DNA from: Owenia fusiformis | Lineage: Eukaryota > Annelida > Polychaeta > Sabellida > Oweniidae | Length of the DNA: 64,000 nt | Direction: 5' to 3' | Assembly (NCBI GenBank): GCA_903813345.2 | Contig: CAIIXF020000010.1 | Span: forward strand, 20,779,181 to 20,843,180 | Shown: positions 15,001 to 52,658 of the stretch, piece by piece | Numbering within the stretch: position 1 is the stretch's first letter | Layout: every line of letters starts with the position of its first letter | Program-made: the position numbers and the translations under genes | The notes under the pieces: generated by a model | Databases searched by the model: none | What the model was told of the DNA's origin: nothing | The model's input: only the letters and a program-made list of their open reading frames with translations

Positions 15001-17888
15001 GAAATATGTCACAATTAAGGCCCCTTCACATAGTACAAATGTACCTCTCTTTGTGATTTATGATTACTGCTCATTATCTTTGCTGATATGGTATAATGCT
15101 GTACTTTCCATTTTACAATTTACAACTTCCACACATGACACTACATGCAGTAGGAGAGTATGTAGAGTATGTTATAATCACCTCTGGTTGCTGTTCAGCA
15201 GGGACAATCATAGGGTCATCCAAAGTTGGTGGATCCTCTGACGTAGAAAACTGAAGCAAGCCATAGGGATGATCATTCTCAACAATTGTAATAGTATTGC
15301 TCTGCGTGTCCTCATCAATACTTGCCCCACTTGTCAAGGTGCTGCCCTCTATCCCATCTGCAGATCGGGCTTTAGTGAGAACAACTCTAAAGTTTTCTGT
15401 CAACTCAGGGTTGGCATCATTGAATGCTGTCACAGTTAATGTCTGGAAACAAAGAACAGCCAAATATTAATATGCTTTCCTATTAAAAAATTTAACCTTG
15501 TAATTTTAAGGTATAATCCAATGATCTGGTCACTTAAATAGTACTCATGATGGAAAAACAAGTATATGGTTGAAAAAACAGCTTCTTTCAGAAAATCAGA
15601 AAAATGAAAACTGAATACTCTAAAAGTTTATCCGAGAAATATTTGTCTGAAGAAGCAATCGTTAACTGTGGAGTACCCCAAGGGTCTGTTCTAGGCCCCC
15701 TCCTATTTATCATATTTGTAAATGACTTCTATCTAGTTTCTGATAAACTCAAACTGGTGATTTATGCGGATGACACTAATATATTATGTAGTGATTCCAA
15801 TCTTGATAATTTGACCACAACTGTAAATTCTGAACTGTGTGACATCAATGATTGGTTGTTGGCCAATAAACTCACTTTAAATGTTAAGAAAACAAAATAC
15901 ATGGTCTTTGGAAATAAAAGAAATATATCTGTGAACAATGAAATAAAAATTGCAAATTCTAACCTTGAAAAAGTAGATGAGATAGGATTCCTGGGAGTAA
16001 TTATTGATTCAAAATTATCTTGGGCTCCCCATATCAATGCTCTTCATAGAAAAGTTTCAAATGTTATAGGAATGTTATATCGAACAAATTATGCTCATAC
16101 TTTAAATTCAAAGATGATAATATATAACTCTCTGATTTTTTCTCATCTTAATAACTGTAATATTTTATGGGGAAATGCTTGTAAGAATCTATTAAATAAA
16201 CTACTGATATTGCAAAAGAAATTTGTTAGATTAATAACAAATTCAGATAGATTAGCTCACACATTCCCAATTTTTCAAGATCTTAAAATACTTAATATTT
16301 ATCATATTCACACAATCCAAACCGTTTCATTCATGAAAAAAGTTATAAGCAAATCTGTACAGTTCCCTTCAAAATTATACGATCACTATTTCAAAACTAG
16401 AGAAAACATACATCAACGTATAACTCGATTTGGTCATAACTTAGATATTCCTAAACATAGAACCAGAATTGGTGAAAATTCTATTAAGGTCCATGGTTCA
16501 TATATATGGAATTCCCTCAATGAAGATATTAGAAATAAACCATTAAATTCACTCATATCTCGTTTGAAAATTGACCTCCTGAGTACAGAGTAACCAAAAC
16601 ATTTATTTCATTTCTTTATTGTCTCATATTATTGTATTTGTATATTGTATTTATATTATATTATTGTATTGACCTATGTACCACTTTAAATGTTCACAGT
16701 TTATCATGTTTATTGTAAATTTAATTATGGGCAGTCATACACCCCCTGGGGTGTCATAGCCTGTATAATGTTGTAATTTTTGTAATGAAAACTGAAATAA
16801 ATTATTTTGAAATTGAATTGAAATTGAAAATTGAAAATTGAATTGAAACTAGTGACTTTTCCATTGATTTTCGATATTTTTGCATGGTGTTTTTAATTTG
16901 AGAATACAGTGTACTCAAAATTTTGAAAGCAAATTAAGCACATTTGAAGTATAGTTATTCAAAGCAGCTTGCAACCTAAAAAGAATTTTTAAATGAAATT
17001 TCCCCTATGCATGGCATTTCATTAAGGTTCATGAAATATATTCAAAAACATTGTACTCACTTGCGATCGTGTCCCTGGTTCAAAGATAAGCTGACCTTGG
17101 TACGCAGTGAAATCCTCCGTTGCTAATGGTGTGAAGTCGGGCCGTACCATTTGCTGGACTTCCCAATCTACTGACACTGTATCAGCATCACCACGACGAC
17201 GCTCGACGGGACAGGAGAAAATGGCGGCTTCATTTGTGGTTGATTCAGGGGAGCATACATCACTAAAGCCAAACAGTCCATTGGCATTGTCACTTTTCAA
17301 TACTGGAAAAAAGTATAGTTACATTGCAGTAAACATTGAGTATCATTTGGGTCTGAATAATACTGATTAGTTTCCTTTCTATCACTATTTTTTGAGGCTT
17401 TTCAAACCTAAATTATATTATTTATCTCTTTCAATTTAGCCATGCAAGTAGCTTTACATTGCAAATGCTTCATTAAGGAAAATGGTTTAAACATTTAATA
17501 GCAATAAAGACCAAAATACATATTTTTCTATTCTGATGATTTTTGGGCAATGTAGTCATATCGATTGAAAAATTGTACTTCCTTTTAATGCAAACTAGCA
17601 CTAAGACTTTGTCATGTAGAAACACATCAACGATTTCTAGCCGGCCAGAGAAAACAACAAATTAAACAAGTACCTTTAACAATTCCAGTATTATCGTTAT
17701 CAGAAACTCTTGCTCCCCCTTTGGCAGATATCAACTTTATAGCAAATGTCTCATCTGCCTCTTCTTCAGTGTCTTGCAGTGATGTCACAGTTATCGTCAT
17801 GGCATCCACACCCTCGGGAAATGTTAAGTAACCGGATAGAGGACTGACGTCAAGCTTTGAGGGTGTTTCATATAGCTCATGTATTTCC
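38..17888 (-). CDS. ADGRV1: ADGRV1 coding exons 24-45 (Calx-beta block 2 and Cys-rich module)
   Basis: Exons in transcription order: 17674-17888, 17061-17302, 15182-15442, 14617-14754, 10389-10661, 9736-9939, 9226-9343, 8110-9077, 7567-7745, 7081-7261, 6800-6949, 6314-6471, 5987-6207, 3403-3522, 3022-3207, 2336-2478, 2044-2143, 1397-1576, 1012-1157, 707-815, 461-545, 38-182. The last exon ends in phase 0 at a GTAAGT donor at 37-32, so the gene continues past the window edge. The intron 10662-14616 hosts a lectin gene, 15443-17060 hosts a reverse-transcriptase remnant, and 3523-5986 hosts nested mariner-like elements. Exon 8110-9077 (968 nt) encodes about three Calx-beta units, including the segment IPNSPRLGP-like NSPRIGP that is well conserved in ADGRV1. 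Confidence 0.92.
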
Positions 17889-40900: not shown

Positions 40901-43900
40901 TGGAATCTTTGAAATAAGAAAGGAGGATTGGCTCCCAGTGTTCCAACTTGATATTGACCTTGACCTATATCAACGACACCATTGAAAATGTCATTATTTT
41001 CTGGCAAAAAATAAATGACTTTAAATTCATAATCAGCCATCCAAAAGATTTGAACTAATATCTTGATCATTTGTGTCTTGAATTTTTTTTTTTGGAAATA
41101 AGACAAAAACTCGTGATTCAAGTCTGAAGTGAAAATATGGGGCTGTTTGATTTTGAATTTCGTAATCACGACATAATTCCATAGATTCCATGGCAGAATA
41201 TTGAGTTGGAACCTTGTCCCGTCAATAATTATTATATGTGTCTGGGTACATGTTTATTTATGAAACTCTGCTGCTAGGTGCAGCTGCTGTAAGGGCAGCC
41301 TCCAGGGAGGTAGATGGCGCTCTAGGTACAACTCCCATCAAACACATCCCTAAACCATCATCTCCTATTGTACATGACAGAACCCCGAAACCATCAACCA
41401 CCAAAAATGGCCATGATGTCAAAGAGGCAACCCCCACACATAAAGCAGAAAAGCGTTCAAGGGAGGATGGTCATTCTGAGAGTTCAAGGAAGCCGTCTGC
41501 AAGTGATAAGATCTCCAAAAGAGAAGATCCACCACCCCGTAAAAAGTCAAGATGTAAGTTACAAAAAATATTATAGCTTGTTATTATGTGGATGGTGTTT
41601 GGTGGTTGGTGTTTGGTGGTCAGCATCTGTAACACATGGCAGGTGGTGACATTTTGCATGATAATGCCATAATCTTACCCAAACAATGACTTTTGAATCA
41701 CAGTTATTTTATTGGTCAATCAACAAGACATGAACAGCTTGTATATCAATTCTAATTTGATATTAAACAGGACTTTTAAACAGATTTACATTTACCAGTA
41801 TCTTCTAAAGGATTCTTAAAATATGGTCTATTTCAATTTTAGCTGATGCTCCTAAGCCCAAAACACCCTTCAGACAGATATTAAAAGGAGTTACGTTTGT
41901 GATGAGTGGCTTTAAGAACCCATATAGAGGTGAACTGAGGGACAAGGCACTGGAGATGGGGGCAAAATACAAGCCTGATTGGGACAAGAAGTGTACACAT
42001 TTGATGTAAGCATCTATTCTATCTATAAACCCCTAAAAGATTTCAAATCTTACGAGATACAAAAATTTTGACCCCAACAGCCAATTTCATAAATAAGTTG
42101 CACTGTCCCCCGTCCAATCAAGACTCCAACTTTTATCAGTGCTGCTTTAGTGCTTAGTAGCAGCTTTTAGTAGCTACTTTACTACAGGATTTTATAGTTG
42201 AATCTTATATTTTTGCTATTTTTTGCAGAAATACTGTATCTCTAAAATTAGTCTAAAAAGAATGACCTGATCATCAACAAATGTGCATGATTATTCAATA
42301 TTTTTATCAAAATCCTTAATTTGATCCTTAATACCATGGTAGTAGCAAAGTAATCTGTTCTAGTACAATCATCGTTTCATAGTGTAAATATCCAATACTA
42401 CAAGTAGTCTAGAAAGTGAAAGTGTAATCTTCATGTGAAAACATGCATTTATTTGTATTTTACATGTTTAAAACAGTTCTACACCAATACAGGTACAGTT
42501 CAAGCAAAATAATGTACATAAAATACAAAACATATTCATTATGGTATCATGAACATTAAGGTGACACAAATACAAACATTATTACATTATCCTATTACCA
42601 TATTTGAATACAAAAAATGATCTATGTAATGTTTACTTAAAACTTACGAGTATACATCATCATCATCATCTTTTTATGACATTACATTTATGAAACAGTC
42701 TATTTAATATACATAATCTAGACTTAATCTTTTAGTCTAGTATAGTTGGTACATTACTTAATCTAGATTTTATTCTATTAGGATTGTGTCATAGATATAC
42801 AATTTTAAATACATAATAAACATAATGTAGATTTTACATGTTTTATCTGTATATAGTTTCATAAATATACAAGGTATATAAACATTATTTAGATTATAAT
42901 CAATGAGTAAAGCATCATAAATGTACAAGTTCATTTTATAAATACATAATACACATGATTTGGATTTTATTCCACTATTGTAGTTTCAGAAATGTACAAT
43001 CAAGACACCCTAATATACAATGTACCACATATTGTTGTTTTAGATGTGCATTTTCCAACACACCAAAATTCCAAGAAGTCCTTGGTAAAGGGAGGATTGT
43101 CACTAAGCACTGGCTCTTGGACTGTTATGAGAAGAAGAAACTATATCCATGGAGGAAGTAAGAAACATATTTTAGTGTTTTTACCAGTTTTTAGTTCATA
43201 TGATGGGCTATTGCAATCACCCACTTGTCTGTGTGTCTGTCCATCTAATTGTCAATCCGTCTGTCAAAATATAGAGGTCACACTTTTTTACACTTTTAAT
43301 CCACCACTGCATCAGCCCAAGATTGTCTGTGTGTCTGTCCATCTAATTGTCAATCCATCTGTCAAAATATAGAGGTCACACTTTTATACACTTTTAATCC
43401 ACCACTGCATCAGCCCAAGATTGTCTGTGTGTCTGTCCATCTAATTGTCAATCCATCTGTCAAAATATAGAGGTCACACTTTTTTACACTTTTAATCCAC
43501 CACTGCATCAGCCCAAGATTGTCTGTGTGTCTGTCCATCTAATTGTCAATCCATCTGTCAAAATCTAGAGGTCACACTTTTTTACACTTTTAATCCACCA
43601 CTGCATCAGCCCAAGATTGTCTGTGTGTCTGTCCATCTAATTGTCAATCCATCTGTCAAAATATAGAGGTCACACTTTTTTACACTTTTAATCCACCACT
43701 GCATCAGCCCAAGATTGTCTGTGTGTCTGTCCATCTAATTGTCAATCCATCTGTCAAAATCTAGAGGTCACACTTTTTTACACTTTTAATCCACCACTGC
43801 ATCAGCCCAAGATTGTTCGTGTGTGTGTCCCTGTCTGTGTGGGCAGGCGCCACATAAATCTTGTTAATTCCGGAAAAACAAATTACTTGTTCATCTTGAA

Positions 43901-46900
43901 AGTTTTACAGATGTAAGAGCAGGTTAGTGCCGATGTCAAGATTTTGTTAGGTTTTTATTAAAAGTGTGGTGTATATCAACTGTATGTCTTGTTCTAGTTC
44001 ATCATCTTTAATTCTGATTGGACTCATTCAGTTGTATTTATAAGATGGATGAAATTCTCAATGCAAGTACATGTATATGGCTTAATTCATTGCTGACCAA
44101 CCCCGATATATTTCGTCTATGACTTCATAATTGTATCTGACCAACCTCCTACATATCACGGGATGCTCTCCAATAATTGTCACACGATCTGTACCAATAA
44201 TCTTACCAAATATTGTAGGGGCTGCTAGGGGACCATGGTTGGGTGCAATTGAAATATATTGCCATTGGCTTCACAATGGCATAAAACATAGCACAGTGGG
44301 TGTTGATATAGTCCGTTTTATGCTTATAGCTTTGGCCAGCAATGAGTTAATAATTGTGTAATGTTTGTAATATTTGTTAGTGTGTTAATTTGGTGACTTA
44401 CATTGATATGTATGATGAGTCTACTTTTTGTTAAGCTTGATCCCGATGCATCTACTCTGTTCAAATTATTTTCTTGTCTTATAATCTCTCACCTTTCATT
44501 GAATGTGCTTTACTAATGTTATCAAGTGTATTTGCAATGCTAGGATGTGACTCGTCCCCAAATATCTCAATGTACATGTTAAGACTCTGATTCAAGTATT
44601 GAATAGCACGGTCATAATCACCTTTTCCTTCATCAACGTATGCAAGACCAATGTTATTGAGCGTATCTGCTATGCTAGGATGTGACTGGTCTCCAAATAT
44701 CTCTCTCTTCATGTCCAGACTCTGATTGTAGTATTGAATAGCATGTTCATAATCACCTTTTCCATGGTATGCCCCACCAATGTTATTGAGTACAACTGCT
44801 ATGCTAGGATGTGACTGGTCTCCAAATATCTCTCTCTTCACATTCAGACTCCTATTGTAGTGCTCAATAGCATCATTATAATCACCTTTATTTCTATATG
44901 CCTCGCCAATGTTGTTTAGTGTATCTGCTATAGAATGATGTGATTGGTCTCCAAATATTTCTCTCTTCATGTCCAGACTCTGATTATAGTTTTGAACAGC
45001 CTGTTCATAATCACCTTTGTTACTGTATGCAGCACCAATGTTGTTTAGTATATCTGCGATGCTAGGATGTGATTGGTTTCCAAATATCTCTCTCTTCATG
45101 TCCAGACTCTTATTGAAGTTTTGAACAGCATGGTCATAATCACCTTTACCGAAGTATGCAAGACCAATGTTGGTTAGTGTGTCTGCTATGGAAGGATGCG
45201 GCTGGTCTCCAAATATCTCTATCTTCATGTCCAGACTCTTATTGAAGTATTGAAAAGCAGGATTAAAATCACCTTTATTCCAGTTTGCAAGACCAATGTT
45301 ATTGAGCGAATCTGCTATGGTAGGATGTGGCTGGTCTCCAAATATCTCTTTCTTCATGTCCAGACTCTTGTTGTAGTGTTGAATAGCATGGTTAAAATCA
45401 CCCTTGTCCATGCTTGCAATACCAATGTTATTGAGTGTATCTGCTATGCTAGGATGTGACTGGTCTCCAAATATCTTTTTGTTCATGGTCACACTCTGAT
45501 TGTAGTGTTGAATAGCATCATTATAATCACCTTTAATCCTGTATACCTCACCAATGTTGTTTAGTGTACCTGCTATGTCGGGATGTGCCTTGTCTCCAAA
45601 TATCTTTTTGTTCATGGTCACACTCTTATTGTAGTATTGAATAGCATGTTCATAATCACCTTTAGCTCTGTATACGTCACCAATGTTGTTCAATGTACCT
45701 GCCATGCTAGGATGTGACTTGTCTCCAAATATCTCTCTCTTCATATCCAGACTCTGATTGGTATATTGAATAGCATGATCATAATCACCTTTACCTTTGT
45801 ATGCCTCACCAATGTTGTTTAGCGTATTTGCTATGTTAGGATGTGACTTATCTCTAAATATCTCTTTATGCAGTGCAAGACTTTGTTGACAGTATTGAAT
45901 TGACAAATCATATTTTCCCTGAGATAAATAAAGAGAGCCTATGCTGTATTTTACATCACTATATTTAATTTTGTCTTCTCTCCCTTCAAGTAAGGCAAGC
46001 CGCTCTTCTTCACGTAAATACGCTTTGAGTGCATTTTCAGTGAAAAACATTTCTTCATGAAGTTGACCTTTTACATTGTCACTGTTGTCAATATATCTCT
46101 GTAGATGTGTGCATGTTGCGAGATCTTTAGAATGTCTTTTTAGAAATTCAGACCATGGGAATAATGAAGCACAGAACCTGTAGATTGCATTGAAATCTCT
46201 CACAGATACTACATCATCTGAAGTTCCCTCACTAGGGTTTGGAGCCAAGAAGGATACCATCTCTTCTTGCTGACCATATCTGCTGTACACTAGATGTCTC
46301 ATATTTGTTGATAGGCAAACCATTACTTGTAAATCTTTCTTGGCTCTACCTGTCAGAACCTGTTTCTTTTCCAGCTCCTCTAAGATATCAAGGGGGCTAA
46401 ATGATTGACAGTGATATATCAATTTGAGAATGTTGATAGATATTGTGGCAAATCTGTAGATTGTGTGTTTTGTACGCATTTGTTTTTGAAATGATTGAGG
46501 TGTTAAAGGATTTTTGTTGTAGTTTTTTAAATCATCCTTTAATGTCTCAAGTCCACGTTCTTGACCTATGGTTTTATTTGGATTTAGGGAAGATTTTGAT
46601 GCAATGATTTCATGAACCTTCTTATTGTACATTTCCCATAAGGATTTGTCTCCTTTTATAATGGTGGATGTCATGAGCACATCACTTAGGTGATAACCTT
46701 CTTTGATTGAAATGTCCTCAAACTGGCATTTTGTCATTTCCTCAAGTGTCATGATTAGCTCTAGTTTATCAGATTTTTTGTTTGGTGGAAGAGTGGTGGA
46801 CTTTCTGCCAAAAGGTGTCTTGCTTGCTTTCGGTAGGGTACCATCAAAACACAGACCCTGTTTTGTCACTCTGTCAAAGAAATTGTTGTCTTCAAAACCT

Positions 46901-49900
46901 TGATCAAGTTGTTTATTAAAATCACAGAGAACAGGAATATCAAGAACATTTAAACGAGTTTCGCCTAAATTGATGACTTTCATGTGAAAATAGTGCACAA
47001 GAACCCTAAAATACTGTTTGATCTCTTCAATTTCTGAAGGTGTTTTACCAGTGGGGTCATAAATTATTGCTGATTCAAGATCAGACCATGCTGTCACCTC
47101 TTTTCTACCCAGTGAACCTAACCCTAACTTAACAAACTTGCACTTTGGAGCACCAAGTACTTTCACACAATCATCAAATATTAAGCCATGGAACTTCTTT
47201 ATCTGATCTGTTAGGTTTTCATAGTAGTTCTTGCAGTTTGCAATCAGTCTTTCTTCACATTCATCACTCATTTCAAATGTAACACTATCAACTTGCATGT
47301 CATTCTCATGAATATTCTTTATAGTATCATTAGAGAATGTCCTCACTTGTTGCAGACATTCCTTGTACCTTTCTGTGCACTTTACAGTTGATTCACTGTT
47401 GACCTTAGATACAGTGTTCAGAAAATTAGTTTCTGTTTGTTGTAACTGGTCAATTATAGATTGTGCAGTTACATGATTACCTTGAAGTGTTGTTACTGTA
47501 TCATCATGGTCCAAATCAGGTTTAGGTTTTTTATCAATGTGTTCTTGTGCTGATTGCGCAGTTACATGTTTACCTTGAACTGTTGTTACTGTATCATCAT
47601 GGTCCAAACCAGGTTTAGCTTTTTTCTCAATGCGTTGTAGTGCTGCATTGAAGAGTGCTGTTGCATAAATGAACTGCCAGTGATCTGATGTTTCACATGC
47701 CAGGTCTGCATACGCCACTCCTAGTTCATACATGTACCCAGCTTGCTTCCTGATCTCGGTCTTCTGATTGCATGCTGTAATGTGCTTTCCCAGCTTGTAC
47801 ATTGCTTCAGAAGTCTCTGGAAAACAGTTGCAATATGTAACATTAATAGCTAGTTCAATATTAATAGCGAGTTCAAGTCACTTTCTTCTTTCTTTCTGTT
47901 CCTGATTTCCTCTGAGATATTATTCAATTTGTTTGCTGAAAACAGGAATGGAGAACATTTGGATAGCATGAAAGAATCATCCACAACATATTTCAAGAAA
48001 TTGAAATTCAAAATCTGAATCTTGGATCGGAAGGCTCGGGTCGGGTCACGAACAACTAATTACCAATTTCAGGTTGGGTCAGAACACTAAAGAATATCGT
48101 AAATTATTATTGAATGCTTTGTATTCCCAGCAAAAATTTCAAACTTTTAGCTGGCCTATTTCTTGTTTACATATAAATTATGAACATAAGATAATTCACA
48201 GTTCTTCTCTACAATTTAAGTTTCTATTTTTTTTCTTTATCAAAGCAAAACATGCAGTAATGCAGGCTTAAACAGTCTTATAATGTGCCATATATTCCCC
48301 TACTCGTTTCAGGTGCTAGTAGTAATTTCATTTTTTCTGTTGTCTTCTAAACCCGACCTGAAATTACCCAGCACACTTTTTTTCTGGCACGACCCGACCC
48401 AAAGAAAATGTGACACATCTAGTTAATTAGTCACTGGTTACAAATTCAGAGTAAACTATAATTACTGTAGTATCAATTACTTTTTGGTGTATTATTCCTT
48501 TTTACTTTTACTTTATTTGAATCCTTACTTGGTGTCTCATCTTTTGAGGTCATGGGTCCAGGGTTATATTCAATACCCCCTATCAGCAGAAGAAGTGTGA
48601 TCACCACCAACAATCGAGGATTGGTTGTGTGTGATCCTGCAATAACATCACTGTGGTTGGTGGATCCATGTGGATGGAAGTTGCCTATAGCACTTCGCCA
48701 TTGGGATATAGTCACCCCCATGACCTATATAATAAAATGCGTTTTTTGACTGACTACATTTACTTGTATGTGTTCCATGAACATTTATATCGTGGGCAAG
48801 CATTTATTTTTATTTATTTATTTATTTCCAATAGTAAGCTTAGGATAATACATTTTCAAGTGGATGACACCCTACTGGGCATATTATAGACGCAATTTGA
48901 AAAATTAACATGGTAAATAAAAAATATGTGTTCACAACATTTTCAAGTCAGTACCCCCTGCCCCTCCCCCCCCCCACCCAAGAAATAAAGTCAACTGAGT
49001 TGCTAGTAAATGTCTTAGAGCAAAATACACAGAGAAGGTTGAATGCAAATCAAATCCATATGTGTCAGCCTTGCCAATTAGAAGATGATTAGATAAAATA
49101 CAAACAAACAAAAACAACATATGCTGCAGTAGTATATGTAGACTGAGAATTGCAATTGTACACACTCAAAATTAATTTGTCTGGTATTGGTGATTAATAT
49201 CATTATCATTTATCAAGAGTGATTTGATTTTTTCTTGTAAAGTGCATCACATATGAATGTGTCAAAAGTCCATATTGTTATTTGTTATTTCATCATATTT
49301 TATGCCTATTTAAAAAATTATGAAAGTTCGAGACACATGAGGTTCTGTGTTTATTCTTTATTGATAGTTTATATAAAAATAAAAGAATAAGATTTGATTT
49401 TGCTTTTAATTTGAAAGTATTCTTCTCCTTTAAAGTAACAGTCTATCAAGGCATAGCTTTAACTACACTAAATAACCCACTCACAATACTCCATTTAATA
49501 ACCACATTCAATAACCACATTCAATACTCTCAATAACCACACTCAATAATTATACCCAACAACTATACTCAATAACCACACTCAATAACTGTACAATAAT
49601 TACACTCAATGTAACCATTCTCAATAACCACACTCAATAATTATACCCAACAACTATACTCAATAACCACACTCAATAACTGTACAATAATTACACTCAA
49701 TGTAACCATTCTCAATAACCACACTCAATAACTATACTCAATTACTACACCCAATGTTTCAATTAATTAATTCTTCCCCTAGCACAATTGAATTCTATAG
49801 GATACTGGTTTGCTTCAACATTTAATGACACCTTTTTACATTCTGCTGGAATTAATTTGAAAATAGATTTGAAATGTGCATGCATTTGATATTTCTACTT

Positions 49901-52658
49901 ACCGTTTCTACTTCTAATTTGATCGCTTATTGTACATGAGGGTGCAAAGTCTGATTGTTTATATGTCTAAAGTTCAATTGTTGTCAGTTGTTTGTTTTTT
50001 GTTTGATTTATCACGCAATGGTATTTGGGTTTGCTGTTCTATATATTTTTTAAACTTTGACTTCTTCATCTAAATAGCGTAATACTTCAGGCTTTGGTGT
50101 TTGGATCTAAATATCACTGTTTATGTAGTGATGGTTACATTAAGGGGGGGGTTGCCCATGTCACTTGTCATTCTAATGTTTATCAGCTGTTTTGAAGATC
50201 TGAAGAGTGGGAGGGGGTTAAATCCTTTGTTAAATTTTTTTCACAATTTTAAAATAATGATATGTCAAATATGAATAGTATATTTGTTACTATTCTACAC
50301 TAGTGAGCAAATACCCTTGAAAACCCCTTTCTTTTTTATTTTGATTCAAAAAAATGTACATTTAGGATATAGTTCTTTCATGATGCCAATTTTAAAAGAT
50401 TGTTGAAAACAAATTCAACATTCTCAATTTCTTCAGATACCGACTTGATGGTGCTGATTCTCCCTCTGGTTCAGGGTCTTCAGGGGATGAAAGTGAAGAG
50501 GAATACAGACCTGTCCCTAAGAAGATTACTCCACATAAATCACCATTGTCCAAAACAATAGCACATAAAACACCACAAAGATCTGTCGAAGGTAGGACCT
50601 ACAGTGTATTTGCTTTTGAGTTTTTAGGAGTTTAATTACAAAAGTACATAACATGTAGTCAGAGACATATAAAACGTATGTCTTATATGTCTCTGATGTA
50701 GTCCATTAATACATGTATTTTAGATTATAAGTTGATTTTAATATTTATGAGAGTTATTAAGATGTCGAGGCGCTGTACTGTTTTAGTTTTTCAGCTAACT
50801 CGTAATAAAATTGAAGTAAATAATTAAAATTAAAAAGATTGTGTCTCCATAAAATGCTGTAAGCCTTATTATTGTTTTCATCAAATTTTTTAAGGCCTGC
50901 TGTACATTTCAATACATGTGTGCTGTCTTTTTAGATTCACCCAGCACATCTAAAGCTTCAGAGACAAAATACAGCCCACGAAAACTGAAAGAAGATGGTA
51001 TGTAATATTGATCTATGTAATGTTCCATTCATGAAAATATTACAATAACATAAAAAAAACTGAGAAACATCTATTGTTTGATCGGGAAACATATTTATTT
51101 ACGAATCTTTAGTATAAGAAATTATGTTATCTTTATAATTACAGAAGATTCCACAGATGTTGAAATGGATACTGATGATGAGATAGAAAAGTAAGTTTTT
51201 TTGTTGTTGTTTTTTAAAAAAAATTTCAGAGAAGAAAAAACATATTAAAGCAATTGCAAAAAAACAATTACAATACAGTTACATGGTAAACATACATTTT
51301 ACAATACAGTCATGCTGAATGTATGTGAACATTTTACTCATTGCTACATAATAAGTAGGTCACATCACATCAGGTTAGGTTTTATCAGGCCTGAAGTTAT
51401 TGCCAAAGAAAATTTTAAACCAATATAAAGATGGCAGCTCTGTTTGTCTTAACTAAGACATAATATTGGCTGGAAAATACAACTCGGTAGAATAAACATA
51501 TATCATAGAATTTTACATAATCATAGTCCTATACAGAACTAGGCATTAATATTCTTAGGATATTTCAGGATCAAAAATGATGCATTAAAAGCCAAGTCCA
51601 AACAGGAAACAAACGATGCAATATACGACCAATCAACTGATGAGGAAACTGATGATGATATTAAACCAAATGATAAAATTCACAACACTCCTCCCTCAAA
51701 GACAGTGGACAATGGTTCTAAAGATATTCAAAAAGATGAGCCAGGAAGTTCAAGTGATTCCGATGATGAGGGTCTTCCTGAGTTACCGGATCTGCCAGAT
51801 TTCTTTGCTGAAAAATATTTTTTCTTTTATGGAAAGTTTGCAGCAGCAGATAGGAGGACGTTGGTGAGATATATCACTGCATTTGATGGGTAGGTCCAAT
51901 AAGTTAAGATTAGTTCAAAGTAATAAGGAAATTATAAGGACAAATCTATGAACTCAATAAGCATGTTAAATGTTATCCCTGACGAGACTAAGAAATTGGG
52001 CCAGTAAAGTTTAAAAATATTTTTAGCCTATTTGTATTTTAAACCCTGCAGGTTAAAGATATGTTAAGAAATATTAATCAGCCAAATTAAAAAAAAGTAT
52101 ACTTAACAAATTCCAAAACTTATACAAAAATATGAATATTTTGAGGAACCAATGATATGATTATGATGTATGTTGCAGGACTGTCGAGGAATATATGAGT
52201 GAGAAGATTCACTTTGTTATAACAGAATCTGAGTGGGATGATAACTTTGATGATGTAAGTACACATACATTGCATGTCACTCTCCAAATGACTATTCATG
52301 CACATCAAAAGTAAGCTCATTTAAAGTAATGCCTGCATTTGGAGTGTGATTTATGGTGTTGATATAAAACATCTTATATAAATAAAGTACAAGAAATCCA
52401 TCCATCTGGTTTTTTGAATTTCAGGAAAAATCAAAATGTTCTAAGTTTGCCATACCTTGCAAGTACAATAATATGATTGCCAATATGGTGGCTAAAATAT
52501 GCATACTTGAATAAAGTTAACACTATAAAAAATAATGTTACTTTCAGGCCCTGAAGGAGAATCCAGAGGTGGCGTTTGTAAGACCTGCTTGGGTGTACGA
52601 ATGTAATGATAAATCGAAACTTGTACCACATCAGAAATATATTGTGACAGCATCATAG
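37978..52658 (+). CDS. XRCC1: XRCC1, DNA single-strand-break/base-excision repair scaffold, complete 15-exon CDS (647 aa)
   Basis: XRCC1 is a nuclear scaffold that assembles DNA polymerase beta, PNKP/aprataxin, PARP1 and ligase III at single-strand breaks. Exons: 37978-38028, 38781-38873, 39296-39403, 39697-39855, 40447-40533, 40663-40783, 41278-41553, 41843-42005, 43044-43157, 50437-50591, 50935-50997, 51145-51190, 51569-51889, 52179-52254, 52548-52658. Phases agree and total 1,944 nt, close to the human length (633 aa). Residues 1-166 form the XRCC1_N domain (HVVSFSSED, NLLKPEGTSKWRCAKAGEKS, IGNNGSAFVEVLVG, RVRMFD, WDKVKVICTQPF). About 299-391 is BRCT1; about 546-647 is BRCT2. The start is at the first Met of a MPxIxxxHVVS amino end, as in vertebrates. 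Intron 9 (7.3 kb) contains an antisense gene and a minisatellite. Confidence 0.96.
38355..38480. repeat. Dispersed intronic repeat, copy 1 (XRCC1 intron 1)
   Basis: GAAATAAGACCAAAACTTGG followed by GATTCGAATTCTGAAGTGA, TTTTGAATTTTGTAATCACGACAT and GGCAGAAT closely matches 41093-41213 in intron 6 of the same gene, same orientation. It is an unclassified SINE/MITE-like family. Confidence 0.6.
41093..41213. repeat. Dispersed intronic repeat, copy 2 (XRCC1 intron 6)
   Basis: GGAAATAAGACAAAAACTCG, GATTCAAGTCTGAAGTGAAA, TTTTGAATTTCGTAATCACGACAT and GGCAGAATATTGA line up with the copy at 38355-38480. Confidence 0.6.
41843..43157 (+). CDS. XRCC1: XRCC1 BRCT1 (PARP/poly-ADP-ribose-binding) exons 8-9
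   Basis: Exons 41843-42005 and 43044-43157 encode the central BRCT: LKGVTFVMSGFKNPYRGELR, ALEMGAKYKPDWDKKCTHLI, CAFSNTPKFQEVLGKGRIVT and HWLLDCYEKKKLYPWRKY. The Trp of HWLLDC and the G-A-K-Y glycine of the BRCT fold are present. In vertebrates this domain binds poly-ADP-ribose and directs XRCC1 to breaks. Exon 8 ends in phase 2 (AT|) and is completed by A from exon 9. Confidence 0.93.
43218..43830. repeat. 98-bp minisatellite, about 6.2 copies, in XRCC1 intron 9
   Basis: The unit starts CCCAAGATTGTCTGTGTGTC and contains CATCTAATTGTCAATCCATC and AGAGGTCACACTTTTTTACA. Starts fall exactly 98 bp apart at 43316, 43414, 43512, 43610, 43708 and 43806, with a partial unit before. Copies differ at only a few sites (ATATAGAGG/ATCTAGAGG), so the array is young or homogenised. 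Confidence 0.92.
43831..44478. other. XRCC1 intron sequence, 3' flank of the TPR gene
   Basis: No gene is seen. On the minus strand AATAAA occurs at 43954-43959, about 520 nt past the TPR-gene stop codon, and could be its polyadenylation signal. The plus-strand ORF at 44131-44361 has no recognisable domain. Confidence 0.4.
44479..48721 (-). CDS. GlnD/DUF294-like nucleotidyltransferase-TPR protein with N-terminal 2A-like leader (2 exons, 1,176 aa)
   Basis: Exon 1 (48529-48721, donor CCAA|GTAAGG) and exon 2 (44479-47816, acceptor TTTTCCAG) join in phase (3,531 nt). Residues 36-56 form a hydrophobic stretch ending in GIEYNPGP. Residues about 125-190 hold a 31-residue direct duplication (KPxLDHDDTVTT). 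Residues about 298-312 read GSLGRKEVTAWSDLE, the G-S...S-D-x-(D/E) core of the GlnD/DUF294 nucleotidyltransferase fold, followed by a GlnD-like helical part (STIIKGDKSLWEMY). The last about 480 residues are 11-12 TPRs of 42 aa (LNNIGxAYxxKGDYxxAIQ), kinesin-light-chain type. It lies antisense in XRCC1 intron 9. Substrate and role are unknown. The second acidic residue is Glu, so catalysis is uncertain. An alternative is that exon 1 is a retroelement relic. Confidence 0.8.
44500..45960 (-). repeat. 126-bp coding repeats (TPR array)
   Basis: Eleven to twelve 42-codon units lie head to tail. At DNA level they share long identical words, for example CCAATGTT(A/G)TT and GGATGTGACTGGTCTCCAAA on the plus strand, showing recent duplication or gene conversion among units. 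Units differ mainly in the second-helix positions xxKGDYxxA, which line the concave binding surface in TPR folds. Confidence 0.9.
48036..48403. mobile_element. MITE-like inverted repeat in the TPR gene's intron
   Basis: CTCGGGTCGGGTCACG at the left and GGCACGACCCGACCC at the right are inverse copies. An inner pair, TAATTACCAATTTCAGGTTGGG and CCCGACCTGAAATTA, is also inverted. The interior has no ORF of note. It separates exon 1 from exon 2 of the TPR gene. Confidence 0.6.
48529..48721 (-). CDS. Exon 1 of the TPR gene: QWRxAIG...hydrophobic...NPGP leader
   Basis: This exon encodes 64 residues plus one base. It starts MGVTISQWRSAIGNF, continues with a polar segment, then RLLVVITLLLLIGGIEYNPG and the following proline, then a charged stretch. 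The hydrophobic run directly before GxExNPGP is the layout of 2A-like peptides known from some non-LTR retrotransposons and from sea-urchin NLR proteins, where they double as signal sequences. The exon-1 base A plus exon-2 AG make one Lys codon, and the frame continues through TSEAMYKLG. That join was deduced from splice signals and has not been observed in RNA. Confidence 0.65.
48554..48577 (-). other. 2A-like ribosome-skipping motif GIEYNPGP
   Basis: The 2A consensus is D-(V/I)-E-x-N-P-G-P, with skipping between the final Gly and Pro. Here Ile, Glu, Asn, Pro, Gly and Pro all match; the Asp is Gly (G-G-I-E). Loss of the Asp could lower efficiency, so this may act partly, or serve only as a signal anchor. 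Confidence 0.6.
49488..49760. repeat. ACTCAATAACC-type short tandem repeats with a 91-bp higher-order duplication
   Basis: Ten- to eleven-base units (CTCAATAACCACA, CTCAATAATTATA, CTCAATAACTGTA) run for about 270 bp. A 91-bp block beginning TATACCCAACAACTATACTC at 49551 is repeated at 49642. XRCC1 intron 9. Confidence 0.8.
51569..52658 (+). CDS. XRCC1: XRCC1 CK2-type acidic cluster and C-terminal BRCT2 (ligase III-binding), exons 13-15
   Basis: Exon 13 first encodes an acidic Ser/Thr cluster, YDQSTDEETDDD (about residues 497-508), equivalent to the casein-kinase-2 sites that in vertebrates bind FHA domains of PNKP, aprataxin and APLF. Then follow LPELPDLPDFFAEKYFFFYG, RRTLVRYITAFDG, EEYMSEKIHFVITESEWDD, NPEVAFVRPAWVYECN and LVPHQKY, a complete BRCT2 that in vertebrates pairs with DNA ligase III. 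The stop (TAG) is at 52656. Confidence 0.93.

Follow-up and report, generated by a model that had tools for sequence, protein, structure and literature searches.

The window, that is, the whole 64,000-nucleotide stretch of Owenia fusiformis DNA analysed here, contains on its minus strand a short exon ending in NPGP that faces a long frame encoding a TPR protein, and the locus raises the question of whether a 2A-like (StopGo) element can be the regular N-terminus of a cellular gene and, if so, what it would do there. As described in PMC12846837, the StopGo core is (D/G/C/N)(V/I)ExNPGP, the skip falls between G and P, variants at the E position keep over 95% activity with H and are cited at 56% or 26% with Q, and StopGo is rare in cellular genes. 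A literature search that covered titles and the starts of abstracts returned no 2A leaders of TPR or DUF294 genes; Rao 2025 and Odon 2013 lay outside its scope. To our knowledge, Rao 2025 (Cell Rep 44:115822) is the one systematic survey of eukaryotic 2A sequences. It seems quite probable that the 2A/StopGo leader is the first coding exon of a large DUF294-TPR family and separates a short peptide from a TPR-nucleotidyltransferase that starts with Pro, with dual targeting in a subset of its members.

The original prediction had placed a leader at 48529-48721 and joined it to the TPR frame, and its coordinates, phases and acceptor are correct on the sequence (Table 1). The ATG at 48721 opens 56 codons, MGVTISQWRSAIGNF...LLVVITLLLLIGGIEYNPGP, that end in GGIEYNPGP; read down to 48529, the exon gives MGVTISQWRSAIGNFHPHGSTNHSDVIAGSHTTNPRLLVVITLLLLIGGIEYNPGPMTSKDETP plus one base, followed by GTAAGG. 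From 47816 onwards (TTTTCCAG/AG ACT TCT GAA GCA ATG) the frame is restored and open to its stop, which by arithmetic amounts to a spliced coding length of 193 + 3338 nt, or 1176 aa plus the stop. Since TATATAG or TTTTAG lies 3 nt 5' of the ATG in the window and in the C8 copies, "exon 1" may itself follow a 5'-UTR exon. The identity proposed for the second exon, a nucleotidyltransferase-TPR protein, was borne out as well: the DUF294 profile score exceeds the curated cut-off, reaching 28.0 in the genome-wide PF03445 scan, and the DUF294-TPR label holds. GSL(G/A)RKEVTAWSDLES is present in the window and the C8 copies, and is presumably a catalytic motif of nucleotidyl transfer, the activity being putative. 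The nucleotidyltransferase region gave one match to solved structures (E 0.57), NCBIfam gave 24 matches, nearly all to TPR families and none reaching its cut-off, and neither NACHT nor LRR appeared among the best 25 of 32 Pfam families.

Table 1. Features of the leader gene in the window (window coordinates) and places of related leader copies elsewhere in the genome (contig coordinates)
Feature	Position	Strand	Basis or remark
Leader exon	48529..48724	-	coding part 48529-48721; GTC, ATG after TATATAG, a possible upstream acceptor
Conserved N-terminal box MGVTISQWRSAIGNF	48677..48721	-	family consensus MGNSxxQWRxAIGTF; alignment of 27 leaders, box-pattern genome search, omega ~0.20
Hydrophobic segment LLVVITLLLLIGG, which may be a signal sequence or an anchor	48575..48613	-	hydropathy only
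GIEYNPGP, the 2A/StopGo core; last Pro codon at 48554-48556, with the skip predicted just before it	48554..48577	-	core motif of PMC12846837 and genome pattern
Intron, 712 nt, phase 1, CAA/GTAAGG ... TTTTCCAG/AG	47817..48528	-	sequence and paralogue splice sites
Coding exon 2 (DUF294-TPR protein), ending in the stop codon at 44479-44481	44479..47816	-	open frame, Pfam
DUF294 nucleotidyltransferase-like match with GSLGRKEVTAWSDLES	46963..47172	-	Pfam 24.5 bits, cut-off 21; genome-wide PF03445 scan
TPR_12-type repeat array, limits approximate	44560..45942	-	Pfam TPR_12 8.8e-105, 8 stretches
Tandem arrays of partial leader-exon copies	C8:34412054-34413812, C8:34263716-34264554, C8:34589418-34589781		unit ~163 bp in first array
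Leaders with GGVQLNPGP or GGVHLNPGP (L061-L067)	C7:38120150, C7:38177050, C7:38242400, C7:36440100, C33:46250, C136:93550, C354:18250

By eye, minisatellites stand on either side of the gene (window ~43500-43870 and 49470-49740), with units of roughly 100 bp containing CAATCTTGGGCTGATGCAGTGG and short units like TTATTGAGTGTGG. Elsewhere in the window, and also by eye, many Calx-beta-like repeat frames at ~2900-31400 on the minus strand probably form one large adhesion- or matrix-type gene, and a 339-aa open frame at 15574-16593 on the plus strand resembles part of a LINE reverse transcriptase.

The predicted 48529/47816 junction is supported by conservation. A total of 58 non-LINE leaders were fetched, together with the stretch to exon 2 where this was close, and their donors were scored with generic weights; by this measure, 57 of the 58 have their top-scoring donor downstream of NPGP in phase 1, the phase-1 donor ranks second in L015, and the donor of L010 is weak (2.3). 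In four LINE copies scored likewise (L043, L049, L052, and L072), the best donor after NPGP reaches -2.6 to -3.6. On the acceptor side, an in-phase YAG lies near the start of a conserved SEAMYKLG-like stretch in 35 of 35 two-exon loci, a raw count made without a shuffled control; its position is the same codon in 31 (27 at -2, 4 at -5) and -26 in three, and in L024 the sole in-phase YAG is off position at +7 and the likelier site ends in AAG. Intron size ranges from ~225 nt to 5.5 kb among the paralogues. In-phase splicing of a 2A-like leader to a DUF294-TPR frame, originally proposed for one gene, recurs as a predicted two-exon plan in dozens of paralogues.

The 2A-like leader is a trait of the whole DUF294-TPR family. 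All counts come from one 498-Mb genome and are lower bounds. The degenerate DNA pattern for (D/G)(V/I)ExNPGP matches 148 places, against 1 in the reversed control, and strict G(V/I)ExNPGP (G-type) matches 53, again against 1, on which grounds a chance motif was rejected; 100 of the 148 places were listed, 67 of them D-type, so that subtraction gives a D-type total of 95, with 28 unseen. With the first 406 residues of exon 2 as query, the nucleotidyltransferase region gave at least 65 matches of 47% identity or higher, together with 35 distant ones (<47%) among the matches listed. Of the 53 G-type sites, 45 have one of the 65 at most 60 kb downstream on their own strand; for 40 of them the distance is no more than 20 kb, and for 36 no more than 8 kb. 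The chance expectation at 20 kb is, by arithmetic, ~0.07 of 53 sites. Some of these 45 pairings may be mistaken, as five exceed 20 kb and one leader stands ahead of two genes. The remaining eight G-type sites are three LINE frames (L043, L049, and L052), three sites at TPR loci on C11, and two unpaired ones; no gene was found for the gene-type leaders at C1:60903230 and C11:35430909. The 20 kb upstream of each of the 100 listed DUF294 matches hold none of the 67 listed D-type sites (95 in total), and no G-type site falls within 60 kb upstream of any of the 35 distant matches listed.

Seen from the genes, 46 of the 65 listed family matches have a G-type leader within 60 kb upstream, and for another seven a protein search places a variant leader upstream, at 0.6-41 kb by arithmetic. 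For the other 12 listed matches, a leader was not found upstream, and the ~7 kb inspected upstream of five of them showed no leader (stray NPGP, 13-codon frame, L093). At E <= 10, a protein search with the leader found 86 matches; apart from the leader itself, the best are on C8 (67% identity) and lie directly 5' of paralogous DUF294-TPR frames. Gene-type leaders occur on all 12 large contigs. The C11 trio of G-type sites belongs to two loci, ahead of TPR-coding frames that have no DUF294 match and to which the join is putative. At L056, L110, L102, and L103, the downstream frames are TPRs, one with a MATH domain, and the C11 leader may therefore also serve TPR-MATH genes. At L056 (C11, 27982685 and 27982727), the 2A core is in tandem duplicate (GIEKNPGPRVIETD twice), with a QWR box upstream.

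The leader is under purifying selection, and it has diverged together with the gene body. Pooled over 135 paralogue pairs (dS 0.05-1.0), which are not independent and include a few loci with identical leaders, omega is 0.34 for the whole leader; it falls to 0.20 over codons 1-17 and to 0.19 over the final 20, against 0.69 in the linker between them. Leader and exon-2 distances correlate with a Mantel r of 0.756 over 31 of the 35 two-exon loci, two identical and two short leaders having been dropped, and 0 of 5000 shuffles were as high. Selection and co-divergence together make it very probable that the leader is translated, that both of its ends are constrained, and that it has been passed down along with the family. 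A history in which single genes captured leaders repeatedly and independently was rejected, since the Mantel result favours descent with the family.

The strict core octapeptide (D/G/C/N)(V/I)ExNPGP is found in 49 of the 58 non-LINE leaders, with GIEYNPGP of the window conforming; because most leaders were collected by the core pattern, part of this conservation, that of G at p12 in particular, follows from the sampling. For that reason, leader queries stripped of the core were also run. The strict core is present in 22 of the 23 matches that these gave at E <= 1e-5, a count that takes in the loci of the queries themselves, and the remaining match is the MDPGP copy. Leu at p8 and (A/G/S)G at p11-p12 are present in 58 of 58 leaders, and the upstream sequence agrees with the StopGo context in a comparison made against the written description of motif 5 and the L-rich type, not against the matrices of PMC12846837. 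Nine leaders depart from the core (six GGVQL, one GGVHL, one GGLET, and one MDPGP), and thus some leaders may skip poorly or not at all. The group L061-L067, in which GGVQLNPGP or GGVHLNPGP replaces the G(V/I)E type, forms a natural series for altered skipping, and L060 (C10:36078700), with GGIEMDPGP, is possibly skip-dead and has frame, donor, and acceptor intact. L051 (C7:35478909), of the weakly hydrophobic class described below, has CTG in place of the box ATG, with core and donor intact, and L098 is one further leader copy, frame-broken.

A second conserved element was missed in the original prediction. The leader opens with a MGxSxxQWRxAIGxF box, which is as constrained as the 2A end and common to LINE ORFs of this genome. 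The pattern GxxxxQWRxxIG, blind to 2A, has 89 genome matches against 2 in controls. Within 800 bp downstream, 49 of them have a G-type site (three being partial tandem copies on C8), nine a variant gene-type site (the frame-broken L098 included), five a listed D-type site, and 26 none of these. The last comprise two partial tandem copies on C8, nine inspected matches, and 15 others. Seven of the nine inspected are LINE frames that open with the box (L069, L070, L099, L104, L105, L106, and L108), followed by a long hydrophobic stretch, NPGP (a decayed site in L105), and endonuclease sequence, of which the first residues alone are in view in L099; Pfam finds the endonuclease in L069, L104, and L106, and RVT_1 also in L069. 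The other two are L107, which looks like chance, and L109, a fragment. Among D-type sites, an ORF1-like coiled coil follows the box and 2A in L071 (by eye), and 18 of 20 chosen for diversity from the 67 listed continue into LINE-like sequence (by eye), L075 and L080 meeting a stop within 20 codons. Box plus 2A is a common property of LINE ORFs and the DUF294-TPR family, and in this layout the leader resembles the N-terminus of same-genome LINE ORFs; with so few alignable residues in LINE and leader copies, either side may have taken it from the other.

Three C8 paralogues (L005, L006, L008, L010, and L011; Table 1) have partial leader-exon copies in tandem immediately 5' of the intact leader; most of these copies keep the QWR box without the 2A part, and a few have internal stops. 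N-myristoylation through the conserved Met-Gly of the box was considered and dropped, the consensus for this modification wanting Ser/Thr at a place where the leaders often have Q or E.

By hydropathy, the best 15-residue mean reaches 2.2 or more in 39 of the 58 leaders, classed as hydrophobic (2.65 in the window leader), and the other 19 are weakly hydrophobic, with pre-2A segments that are mostly charged, many like LRLIKLLLVRAGVEQNPGP. The strict core is kept by 30 of 39 leaders in the former class and by 19 of 19 in the latter, all core departures being in the hydrophobic class (9/39 vs. 0/19); these nine are not independent, since seven come from one similarity group (C7, C33, C136, and C354). 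This distribution bears on the idea, put forward in the original prediction, that failed and successful skipping would send the protein to different destinations. As a main function, the partition of the protein between the secretory pathway and the cytosol through incomplete skipping is possible but doubtful. The hydrophobic majority would suit it, as would the confinement of altered cores to that class, as if skipping were tuned there (seven of the nine again being from one group), and the sea-urchin NLR leader behaves so in HeLa cells according to PMC4981915. However, the weakly hydrophobic leaders all keep the strict core, which makes separation the more probable shared function; dual targeting alone leaves the constraint on the QWR box, equal to that on the 2A end, unexplained; and a TPR protein of 1,100 residues would be an odd secretory cargo. 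Dual targeting fits the 39 hydrophobic leaders and seems to fail as the common function: with hydrophobicity variable and QWR box and core constant, separation, perhaps with a released peptide, would be shared, and dual targeting would be an option of a subset.

Two other explanations deny the leader any skipping or any place in the gene. If it served solely as a signal anchor or as an extension of the N-terminus, with no skipping at all, its NPGP would be an inactive LINE inheritance; altered cores in 9/58 leaders and the dependence of core activity on upstream context, reported in PMC12846837, would agree with this, but the low omega of the last 20 codons, the strict core in nearly all strong matches to core-less queries, and the fact that class-to-class variation sits in hydrophobicity render it improbable. 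Still further from likely, indeed very improbable, is a TPR gene that starts at an internal Met of its own, with the exon being part of a different transcript, one from a LINE or derived from a LINE. The same box and NPGP site do occur in same-genome LINE ORFs, but the window has no other frame of at least 100 aa from 47,878 to 51,542, the paralogues agree in having donors and acceptors in phase, leader and body co-diverge, and the four LINE copies have no good donor after NPGP. Membership of the window leader in a local LINE was likewise rejected, given the lack of such a frame nearby and the conserved splice plan.

In the preferred reading, a separating leader with dual targeting in a subset, the spliced mRNA would yield a ~56-residue leader composed of the QWRxAIGxF box, a linker, a Leu-rich segment, and GIEYNPGP. 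In most passes, the last Gly-Pro bond would not be formed and the leader peptide would be released, the ribosome continuing into a cytosolic, nucleotidyltransferase-like TPR protein with an N-terminal Pro. When skipping fails, a retained hydrophobic leader may direct its protein to the ER or a membrane, and the unskipped form with a weakly hydrophobic leader would stay cytosolic. Splicing of the exon in this manner in RNA, skipping at the core, the destinations of the products, and a role of the released peptide in its own right are what we infer from the sequences. A more far-reaching possibility, which is rather unlikely, is a domesticated, LINE-related two-product cassette of ~50-60 genes, in which the ~55-aa QWRxAIGxF peptide would act in trans and the TPR-nucleotidyltransferase would be the sensor or effector of an innate-defence-like family. 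If so, the trans targets of the peptide could be, for example, the LINE ribonucleoprotein or translation, and one mRNA would give a fixed pair of products, with skipping strength varying naturally among paralogues.

The importance of this locus lies in a whole animal gene family that carries a StopGo core in an exon of its own under selection, cellular use being described as rare in PMC12846837. The family offers a natural series of strict cores, E-to-Q and E-to-H changes, one NPGP-to-DPGP change, and hydrophobic and weakly hydrophobic leaders; thus, the purpose of cellular 2A leaders, be it targeting, separation, or a functional leader peptide, becomes directly testable. Moreover, the shared N-terminal box ties host genes to LINE ORFs.

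Among known systems, APE-type non-LTR retrotransposons reportedly contain 2A sites (Odon 2013). The window leader is like the LINE sites in having NPGP in an ORF, several of those in this genome also opening with the QWR box, and is unlike them in being followed by a host TPR gene instead of endonuclease and reverse transcriptase; moreover, the LINE sites of the genome are mostly D-type or D(I/V)HxNPGP, with three G-type. With viral StopGo of motif 5 and the L-rich type, as presented in PMC12846837, the leaders share the core, a Leu-rich upstream segment, and the (A/G/S)G ending at p12, but they differ in residing in a cellular gene family and at the N-terminus. The sea-urchin precedent invoked in the original prediction is real: for the SpNLR2A leader (Roulston 2016), PMC4981915 describes a product partitioned between the cytosol and the secretory pathway, and, as in the window leader, the 2A-like element is N-terminal, a hydrophobic run precedes NPGP, and the invertebrate family is large and repeat-bearing. 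However, SpNLR2A belongs to NLR proteins and is a 26-aa element with D(V/I)ExNPGP (PMC4981915), whereas the window protein gives DUF294 and TPR, with neither NACHT nor LRR among the best 25 of 32 Pfam families, and the leaders of the DUF294-TPR proteins are 54 to over 200 aa long, carry the QWRxAIGxF box and a G-type core, occupy their own exon before a phase-1 intron, and include a weakly hydrophobic class.
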